Assembly: GCA_902564295.1 (NCBI GenBank) | Contig: CACFAO010000008.1 | Location: forward strand, 1-56,568 | Direction of reading: 5' to 3' | DNA length: 56,568 nucleotides | Origin: an uncultured Pelagibacteraceae bacterium | GTDB taxonomy: Bacteria > Pseudomonadota > Alphaproteobacteria > Pelagibacterales > AG-422-B15 | Part shown: positions 24,752-26,785 of the stretch, piece by piece | Position numbering within the stretch: position 1 is the first letter of the stretch | Layout: each line of letters starts with the position of its first letter | Notes under the pieces: model-generated | The model's input: only the letters and a program-made list of their open reading frames with translations | Databases searched by the model: none | Told to the model about the DNA's origin: nothing | Program-made: the position numbers and the translations under genes

Positions 24752-26065
24752 TTATGCTGCGTCTAAAGCATTTTTAAGATCTTCGATAATATCATCAATA
24801 TGTTCAATGCCTATTGATAGTCTGACATAACTAGGATTCACACCTGCAGATTCCATATCCTCATCTGACAATTGAGAGTGAGTTGTTGAAGCTGGATGTA
24901 TAGCCAAGCTTCGGGCATCTCCAATATTAGCAACATGATAGAACATATTTAAATTATTAATGAACTTCTCACCACTGGCCTTACCCCCTTTAAGTTCAAT
25001 GCCACATAGAGCGCCGTGACCTCCCTTAAGGTATTTGTTAGCCCTTTCTCCAGCCTCACCTTCATCTAAGCCAGCATATATAACCCTTGAGACCTTATTA
25101 TGATTGGATAAATATTCAGCTACCTTAGCCGCGTTAGAACAGTGCTTTTCCATTCTTAAAGAAACAGTTTCTAATCCCTGAATTATTTGAAACGCACTTT
25201 GTGGTGGGAGAGCAGGACCAAGGTCCCTTAATCCTACAAATCTTGCTCTTACGATATATGCTATAGGACCAACTGCCTTCGCAAACTCAGTCCAAACCAT
25301 ACCGTGATAGCTTGGATCAGGGTTATTTAACATAGGTTGTCTTTTAGGGTCTTTAGCCCAATCAAACTTTCCACTGTCGACAATTATTCCCCCAATAGTC
25401 GTACCATGACCACCTATGAATTTTGTAAGTGAATGTACAACGATAGTTGCACCGTGTTCGATCGGCTTGCAGATTACTGGCGCTGCAGTATTGTCTACAA
25501 TAAGCGGAATATTATATTCATCCCCAATATCAGCAACCTCCCTAATAGGAAAGACTTTTAGTTTTGGATTTGGTAAAGTTTCAGCATAATAAGCACGTGT
25601 ATTATCGTCTGTCATTTTTCTAAAACTCTCAGGATCTGTTGGATCAGCAAACCGAACTTCAATACCTAAATCTTTCATTGTGTTGGCAAATAAATTCCAT
25701 GTTCCACCATATAAATCTGTTGAACTAACAATATTATCTCCAGCTTTTACAAGGTTTTGAATGCTTAACATTGAAGCAGATTGACCCGAACTAACACATA
25801 ATGCTCCCACGCCCCCTTCCATTGCTGCAACCCTTTTTTCAAGAACATCTACAGTTGGATTCATTATTCTTGTGTAAATATTACCAAAATCCTTTGCTCC
25901 AAATAAGTTGGCTGCGTGTTCAGTATTATGAAACTGATATGACGTTGTTTGATATATTGGGACAGCTACTGACGTAGTAGAAGGATCACTTCTATAATCT
26001 CCTCCATGCAACGCAATAGTTTCAGGATTTACAGAGTCTGCTGGATTAAATTTATTTTTTGCCAT
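24752..26065 (-). CDS. metY: O-acetylhomoserine aminocarboxypropyltransferase (O-acetylhomoserine sulfhydrylase)
   Basis: PLP enzyme that makes homocysteine from O-acetylhomoserine and sulfide, the direct sulfhydrylation route to methionine. About 437 residues; the PLP lysine motif is VHSLTKFIGGHGTTIGG and the N-terminus NPETIALHGGDYRSDP is typical of MetY. The frame extends to 26107, but the ATG at 26065 has an AGAGG ribosome site seven bases upstream and matches relatives. A riboswitch-like leader with an intrinsic terminator precedes it, so expression is probably reduced by S-adenosylmethionine. Confidence 0.94.
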   Translation of the reverse strand: MAKNKFNPADSVNPETIALHGGDYRSDPSTTSVAVPIYQTTSYQFHNTEHAANLFGAKDFGNIYTRIMNPTVDVLEKRVAAMEGGVGALCVSSGQSASMLSIQNLVKAGDNIVSSTDLYGGTWNLFANTMKDLGIEVRFADPTDPESFRKMTDDNTRAYYAETLPNPKLKVFPIREVADIGDEYNIPLIVDNTAAPVICKPIEHGATIVVHSLTKFIGGHGTTIGGIIVDSGKFDWAKDPKRQPMLNNPDPSYHGMVWTEFAKAVGPIAYIVRARFVGLRDLGPALPPQSAFQIIQGLETVSLRMEKHCSNAAKVAEYLSNHNKVSRVIYAGLDEGEAGERANKYLKGGHGALCGIELKGGKASGEKFINNLNMFYHVANIGDARSLAIHPASTTHSQLSDEDMESAGVNPSYVRLSIGIEHIDDIIEDLKNALDAA

Positions 26066-26099
26066 TTTTTTACCTCTATTTAAAATTCTACGAGTTTCT

Positions 26100-26136
26100 G
26101 CAAACAAAAGAGCCGCATCATATATTATGTGCGGCT
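26100..26136 (-). terminator. Intrinsic terminator in the metY leader (attenuator)
   Basis: On the - strand a perfect 7-base stem, AGCCGCA (26136-26130) and TGCGGCT (26117-26111), encloses a 12-base AT-rich loop and is followed by CTTTTGTTT. It sits between the aptamer-like element and the metY ribosome site, so it would end transcription before the gene. The 5' arm CCGCA can alternatively pair with TGCGG inside the upstream aptamer. Confidence 0.8.
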
Positions 26137-26180
26137 GGTGGCTTAGCTGTTTAAGTCCGCAAGCTGCATTAAACTCGACA
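26137..26180 (-). promoter_or_regulatory. Candidate SAM-II-like (SAM-alpha) riboswitch aptamer upstream of metY
   Basis: The leader RNA reads, in pieces, GUCGAGUUUAAUGCAGCUUGC, then GGACUUAAACAGCUAAGCC. It combines a UUUAA segment, a CUUGC, UUAAAC and GCUAA in the order and spacing recalled for SAM-II aptamers, which regulate methionine genes in alphaproteobacteria. GUUUAA and UUAAAC can also pair perfectly. The P1 helix is weak (GUC/GAC), so the class could instead be the related marine SAM-V or a diverged member. Position before metY and an attenuator supports SAM control; no covariance search was possible. Confidence 0.62.
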
Positions 26181-26189
26181 ATATATTGA

Positions 26190-26220
26190 ATAACACTCTA
26201 AGGCTTATGTAAAGTGTTAT
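26190..26220. promoter_or_regulatory. Inverted repeat ATAACACT-N15-AGTGTTAT at the metY promoter
   Basis: Two perfect 8-base half sites (26190-26197 and 26213-26220) separated by 15 bases, about 120 bases upstream of metY. On the - strand the repeat spans CTTTACA, a possible -35 element. This could be an operator for a dimeric regulator, or simply a chance palindrome in AT-rich DNA; there is no T run to make it a terminator. Confidence 0.4.
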
Positions 26221-26320: not shown

Positions 26321-26785
26321 ATGACTACATCTAAGATACTAAAGCAAACTACGTCTCTAAGAAAAGAAGACATAAAAAAGGAATGGCTGCTAATAGACGC
26401 AAAGGATATTGTCTTGGGAAGACTTGCAACAAACGTATCGAACATTTTAAGAGGTAAGCATAAACCAACCTATACTCCGCATGTAGATTGCGGTGATAAT
26501 GTGGTCATCATTAATGCTGAAAAAATTAAGCTTACAGGTAAAAAGCTCGAAGACAAAACTTATTATAGGCACACAGGATATCCCGGTGGAATTAAAGCCA
26601 TCAACGCTAGAAAAATATTAGAGGGGCAATTCCCTGACAGACTAGTCAGAATGGCCGTTAAAAGAATGATACCGAAAGGACCACTCGGAAGAAAGCAACT
26701 ATCTAATATGAAGGTATATGTAGGCGACAAACACCCTCATGAAGCTCAAAACCCAAAGATATTTAACATGCAGGAAGTGGTCTAA
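26321..26785 (+). CDS. rplM: 50S ribosomal protein L13
   Basis: 154 residues with the L13 pattern: [17 protein letters not shown], then [18 protein letters not shown], the HTGYPGG loop and [16 protein letters not shown]. An early assembling large-subunit protein. The rpsI start follows the stop directly, the universal rplM-rpsI pair. A divergent metY leader lies upstream. Confidence 0.97.

Follow-up and report, generated by a model that had tools for sequence, protein, structure and literature searches.

The SAM-II riboswitch (Rfam SAM_alpha, RF00521), a sensor of S-adenosylmethionine (SAM), was originally described with a promoter immediately ahead of its P1 helix and with a terminator (PMC1273637), and metY is one of its known target genes (PMC4239095). 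Its pocket includes 13 nucleotides reported to be completely conserved, among them A47, which contacts the amino and carboxylate groups at the methionine end of SAM (PMC3764141). The SAM-V aptamer (RF01826) has a similar fold with a 4-bp P1 (PMC6061858), and in Candidatus Pelagibacter ubique it is situated in the intergenic gap between rplM and metY (PMC2704228 Table 1). We have analysed the metY leader located in the same gap on a contig of an uncultured Pelagibacteraceae bacterium (CACFAO010000008.1, assembly GCA_902564295.1), whose whole stretch of 56,568 nucleotides is referred to here as the window. Judged from its sequence, this leader is best read as a real, conserved riboswitch-type element, which is called a short-P1 variant of SAM-II and not a plain member because strict membership fails on the Rfam score and on A47. 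We consider it probable, with some reservation, that it is a SAM-II-type riboswitch with a 3-bp P1 that begins at, or directly beside, the site where transcription starts, and that it acts on metY by transcription termination.

The RNA shares with SAM-II the pseudoknot core of P1 and P2, the UUU, UUGC and GCUAA elements, the promoter right before P1, the terminator after P2 and the metY/metX targets, and the OFF logic of that class can be expected of it likewise. It differs in its P1, which has 3 bp where the metX copy of the same genus has 8, in a G at position 47, in a very short joint between P1 and P2 that holds no hairpin, and in being missed by the Rfam model; a diverged subtype, as suggested by an earlier sequence-only reading of this DNA, is consistent with these features. 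In the same genus the SAM-II leader of metX (L035-L063) has a comparable core, GAUUUGAGCACAGCUUGCGG...CAGCUAA, and also a terminator, however its P1 is of full length, its A47 is kept, RF00521 scores it at 35.8-45 bits and its antiterminator is supported. With the SAM-V of the Ca. P. ubique metY gene the leader has in common the gene, the rplM/metY site, the short P1 and a related triplex pocket, but SAM-V has a P3 hairpin and an overlap with the ribosome-binding site for translation control, and the leader in the window has neither of these and has a terminator instead. Its Shine-Dalgarno (SD) sequence stands about 63 nt downstream of P2.

The SAM-II-type core and its P1 helix

On the minus strand, positions 26179-26102 consist of a SAM-II-type core followed by a 7-bp hairpin and a U-rich tail, and this unit sits between the promoter and metY (sequence read from 26190: ttcaatatattGUCGAGUUUAAUGCAGCUUGCGGACUUAAACAGCUAAGCCACCAGCCGCACAUAAUAUAUGAUGCGGCUCUUUUGUUUGCAGAAACUCGuagaauuuuaaauAGAGGuaaaaaaAUGGCA). 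The core is composed of the following parts.

26141 to 26179, minus strand: SAM-II-type aptamer, short-P1 variant, assigned by the match to covariance model R1 (see below) and by P1 covariation
26177 to 26179, minus strand: 5' strand of P1, GUC, whose changes are compensated at 26155-26157 in relatives (GC/AU and CG/UA/AU)
26155 to 26157, minus strand: 3' strand of P1, GAC, with the same compensatory changes with 26177-26179
26171 to 26173, minus strand: third-strand UUU (U10-U12 in SAM-II numbering), without variation in core alignments A2-A4; pocket bases according to PMC3764141
26159 to 26164, minus strand: 5' strand of P2, GCUUGC, with the equivalents of U20, U21, G22 and C23 inside; invariant in the family, UUGC invariant in all compared cores
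26141 to 26147, minus strand: 3' strand of P2, GCUAAGC, that is G42, C43, U44, A45 and A46 followed by the G of position 47 (26142); GCUAA invariant

All core elements named in the sequence-only reading were found on this strand (UUUAA at 26169-26173, CUUGC at 26159-26163, UUAAAC, and GCUAAG at 26142-26147), and so was its short P1. The RNA keeps 12 of the 13 conserved pocket nucleotides (U10-12, U20, U21, G22, C23, G42, C43, U44, A45 and A46).

P1 is the part for which covariation is informative. In 23 distinct cores from metY, metX and mmuM leaders of SAR11 and other alphaproteobacteria, its pairs co-vary between G-C and A-U at one position, between C-G, U-A and A-U at the next, and between A-U, C-G and U-A at an optional fourth pair, which a g7 relative has. 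Double changes were counted in 25 cells against 7.4 expected, a value reached in none of 500 shuffles, and the signal was lost when the partner strand was slid; P1 is 3-4 bp long and three of its pairs have covariation support. The four core pairs of P2 (UUGC with GCUAA) are feasible in all 23 cores and do not vary at all, so they are uninformative in this respect. An alternative P1, GAGU/ACUU, is feasible in the window's genus (g1) and absent from g7 and g9, and GUC/GAC was preferred for this reason. A GUUUAA/UUAAAC hairpin was ruled out as well, being disrupted in relatives (UUAUAC, UUAAUC, CUAAC).

Neither RF00521 nor RF01826 matched the leader in the window, at the gathering scores (36 and 41 bits, respectively) or at E<=10 with relaxed filters. 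RF00521 at E<=1 also had no match for five relatives with the same core (L065, L092, L088, L106, L108), although it scores the metX leader L039 of the same genus at 44.7 bits; RF01826 had no match elsewhere in the genus either. Weak matches of other Rfam families in the window (RcsR1, isrK, ncr982 and others) were set down to chance, since they were far under the gathering scores and the best of them was aligned chiefly to the terminator hairpin. We have trained a covariance model, R1, on g2, g3 and g5 cores only, from a sister family and with the family of the window left out. The top-ranked R1 match in the window is 26183-26142, at 24.6 bits and E=8e-5, and in the whole 1.09-Mb genome this leader was the best match (E=0.0016, next match 0.24). 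Scores of 39-41 bits in g7 and 30 bits in g9 were also obtained with the model, which picks up metX leaders in other alphaproteobacterial families too. Of the checks proposed earlier, compensatory changes in homologous leaders were found, in P1, and matches to the Rfam models SAM_alpha and SAM-V were not.

A DNA search placed the leader in 17 genomes of the genus, the window's own included, with 84-95% identity in the other 16, and a core-only match lies in another family of the same order. Scanning 397 genomes of the order and 53 genomes of the family with a core pattern yielded 27 true metY leaders with core and terminator, in 27 of the 53 family genomes and three genera: 20 in g1, 5 of 5 in g7 and 2 of 2 in g9. 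Named records of these leaders come from the SAR11-type group of single cells to which AG-422-B15 also belongs. Across 84,980 species genomes the exact core pattern was met in 25 records, each of which has Pelagibacteraceae or Pelagibacterales in its title; viral contigs scanned with the pattern gave no match. Wherever the core is present, the pocket bases are invariant over the three genera, and the bases between P1 and P2 and those of the hairpin loop vary.

The surroundings of the leader are listed below.

26185 to 26213, minus strand: promoter, by consensus match only, with -35 TTTACA (26208-26213), a 17-bp spacer and -10-like TTCAAT (26185-26190)
26073 to 26077, minus strand: SD-like AGAGG
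26065 to 26063, minus strand: metY start codon, ATG
24752 to 26065, minus strand: metY, O-acetylhomoserine aminocarboxypropyltransferase (O-acetylhomoserine sulfhydrylase) family, TIGR01326 at 603.8 bits against a cut-off of 495.1
26321 to 26785, plus strand: rplM, divergent neighbour of metY (TIGR01066)

The TIGR01326 score agrees with the earlier naming of the element as a metY leader. In 26 of the 27 leaders, over three genera, TTTAC(A/T) is followed after exactly 17 bp by a -10-like hexamer and then by 5-6 nt to P1, and the start of metY transcription is predicted at the first P1 base (the G of GUC) or within about 2 nt of it. Such a start, at P1 itself, may explain why the stem is so short. 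Sequence and covariation together identify the fold class of the aptamer, its P1 helix, the terminator and the position of the leader before metY.

Terminator and candidate antiterminators

Immediately downstream of the core two features were recognized.

26111 to 26136, minus strand: intrinsic terminator hairpin AGCCGCA...UGCGGCU in the predicted fold, 7 bp (26130-26136 with 26111-26117)
26102 to 26110, minus strand: U-rich tail C UUUU G UUU, U6-U10 in relatives

The sequence that follows the hairpin is CUUUUGUUU. Ahead of the start codon, each of the 27 family metY leaders carries a U-tract and a hairpin whose stem reads CCGC...GCGG, and in 19 distinct leaders of the three genera the seven stem pairs were formed in 100% of the cells, with one-sided changes only. 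The 7-bp terminator hairpin of the sequence-only reading is accordingly a conserved one. Its further suggestion, that the terminating design is of a marine kind, was not upheld, because the original description of SAM-II already had a terminator.

The pairing UUGCGG with CCGCA had been proposed as a built-in antiterminator. A helix between the aptamer strand and the 5' arm of the terminator does exist in the window as UGCGG:CCGCA, of 5 bp and not 6. In g9 a different segment, UGCGGCU:AGCCGCA, forms 7 of 7 pairs and is the better fit, equalled by 7-13% of shuffles; its g1 homologue UGCAGCU:AGCCGCA has one A.C mismatch, and leaders with UACAGCU have two. GCGG is equally conserved in relatives which have no such terminator, so the aptamer itself accounts for its conservation. 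The situation is clearer in the metX SAM-II leader of the same genus, where the 3' strand of P2 pairs with the terminator loop over 6-8 bp, as good in 0-1% of shuffles for five of six variants and in 4% for the sixth, and where L051 keeps this pairing by means of different bases. A loop-type antiterminator of this kind was absent from the g7 metY leaders tested.

The bhmT tandem of SAM-II and SAM-V in Ca. P. ubique (L021) has the order seen in the window, a SAM-II aptamer and then an intrinsic terminator, but the window has no downstream SAM-V, its terminator is different and no antiterminator between aptamer and loop is visible in it. In the tandem leaders L021, L028 and L029 it was noticed by eye that the aptamer strand GCUAAAGC is complementary to GCUUUAG(C) of the terminator hairpin, which is likely to be an antiterminator in the style of metX of the window's genus.

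Three points of the mechanism are inferred, namely which ligand is bound, in which direction it acts and how the antiterminator pairs. The metY leader is most likely a transcriptional OFF switch, and termination upon ligand binding is its likely design, in which the antiterminator is a proposed part. When SAM is plentiful, it would be bound in the P2 triplex, and P2 (GCUU/AAGC and GC/GC flanking the bulged U44) together with P1 would lock the strand GCUUGCGG; the AGCCGCA/UGCGGCU hairpin could then form and the polymerase would halt ahead of metY. When SAM is scarce, P2 would be open and part of the strand GCAGCUUGCGG would be free to contact the 5' arm of the terminator (UGC.GCU with AGC.GCA, or UGCGG with CCGCA), making read-through more frequent. 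Since bases of the P2 strand are also used by the proposed antiterminators, the two would exclude each other.

Pocket base 47 and competing explanations

Several observations weigh against a SAM-responsive terminating switch. The most serious is position 47, which was not part of the sequence-only reading: every one of the 27 family metY leaders has G there, as have two g5 genomes, and this is the main reason why ordinary SAM binding is doubtful. When A50 of SAM-V, the equivalent of A47, was changed to inosine, binding was severely reduced and most of it was lost (PMC6061858). Rfam has no match for the leader in the window or for the relatives tested, and in one relative (G059, L088) the GUC of P1 is lost. 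The U-rich run, although present, is interrupted in the window genome, where a simple terminator scan made no call. As to the antiterminator, the duplex between aptamer and terminator 5' arm is as good in 14-37% of shuffled arms in g1 and in 63-83% in g7, and no covariation of the proposed pairing was seen in the metY leaders; the built-in antiterminator as first proposed is not borne out.

The strongest competitor starts from position 47: the aptamer may be derived from SAM-II but retuned, with a G47-C19 pair and a poor grip on the methionine end, so that it switches only at high SAM or binds another adenosyl sulfonium. We regard this as possible but unlikely. It is favoured by the consistency of G47, since A stands at this position in the metX copy of the genus and in all 27 readable alphaproteobacterial SAM-II RNAs of a class-wide set (drawn from the best-scoring Rfam matches and thus leaning to the canonical form), and by the C just before UUGC (C19, 26163), which is able to pair with G47, and by the role of A47 as the amino and carboxylate contact; moreover, the other pocket bases are invariant, which argues that the RNA is not simply decaying. 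On the other hand metY is a classical SAM-repressed gene, and close g5 relatives differ by just one A (GCUAAAGCGG vs GCUAAGCGG), which suggests a tolerated change and not a switch of ligand. That the fixed A47-to-G change, with its C19 partner, has shifted specificity away from the methionine end of SAM, metY of this family answering to another adenosyl compound or only to very high SAM and metX of the same genus keeping the ordinary sensor, seems to us somewhat more doubtful again.

It is improbable that ligand binding has been lost from the aptamer, or that P1 is too weak, and that the leader serves as a fixed attenuator or gives rise to a small RNA which ends at the terminator. Such decay would fit the loss of P1 in L088, the degenerate core and the replacement of the terminator by a long hairpin in L097-L100, and the lack of any recognisable aptamer in G005, G019 and g8, but it is hard to reconcile with pocket bases held invariant over three genera next to a varying joint and loop.

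Slightly less probable still is that control is exerted chiefly after read-through, by a pairing which links ligand binding to the read-through leader and translation.

26091 to 26104, minus strand: segment after the terminator, complementary to the aptamer 5' strand (26165-26177) and termed helix X; in the window the duplex has -14.4 kcal/mol and is equalled by 1% of shuffles

In most of the genus helix X keeps its register and is stronger, at about -12 to -18 kcal/mol and equalled by 0-3% of shuffles, with exchanges such as ACAGC/GCUGU and GCAGC/GCUGC (A-U/G-C/G-U), and in g7 L067 the same segment can also pair with the SD and the start codon. It is, however, not above chance in g9 (0.34-0.46 of shuffles as good), variable in g7 (0.05-0.36) and nearly absent in L017 and L088; translational control through it was rejected because the predicted change in SD accessibility is small. 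The segment is made after the termination decision. Finally, a SAM-V identity, in spite of the shared syntenic site and the similar short-P1 fold, is hardly credible and was refuted by the lack of an RF01826 match at any threshold, of a P3 hairpin between P1 and P2 and of a ribosome-binding site in the P2 3' strand.

Short-P1 cores in other leaders

The short-P1 SAM-II-type core is not restricted to leaders with a terminator. In Pelagibacteraceae g2 and g5 the core GUCGAUUUGAUACAGCUUGCGGAC...CAGCUAA precedes metY without one, and in Pelagibacter g3 a related core, GCC GAUUUGAUCCUAUUGCG GGC...CUGCUAAAAAGGA, lies just 5' of SAM-V ahead of metY and mmuM. These results indicate that the SAM-II covariance model has a gap. 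In SAR11 and other alphaproteobacteria with small genomes, among them one similar to Ca. P. ubique, metY, metX and mmuM are preceded by short-P1 cores, on which Rfam made no call at the loci tested. One subgroup has an altered base at a pocket position reported as fully conserved, so a direct test of ligand recognition would be possible. The orthologous rplM/metY site may also allow terminator-coupled SAM-II, terminator-less SAM-II, and SAM-II followed by SAM-V to be compared.

In g3 (L019-L027, L031-L033, including the HTCC1062-like genome G041) the short-P1 core is about 60 nt upstream of SAM-V, with no terminator between them. L031, of G041, has its SAM-V at the rplM/metY site as well. RF00521 made no call on the g3 cores tested, and those metY and mmuM gaps are given as SAM-V only in PMC2704228.

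Within the window's genus several genomes, like g8, have metY with a degenerate core or none recognisable. In four of them (L097, L098, L099 and L100, from G022, G061, G017 and G034) the core is degenerate (GUUUGCAGAC, GCAAUU), and by eye an apparent long hairpin, UCGAUGUAAUUG...CAAUUAUCAUCGA, takes the place of the terminator and shows paired changes in L100. Among the pattern matches, L147 and L151 lie inside open reading frames and are not the motif, L132 being nearly identical in sequence to L147; context was the only ground for discarding L070, L075 and L094. The g5 metY leaders L106, L107, L110 and L111 carry a second conserved element, (A/G)GUCGA.UAAC(U/C)GACUA, near the ribosome-binding site and downstream of the short-P1 core.
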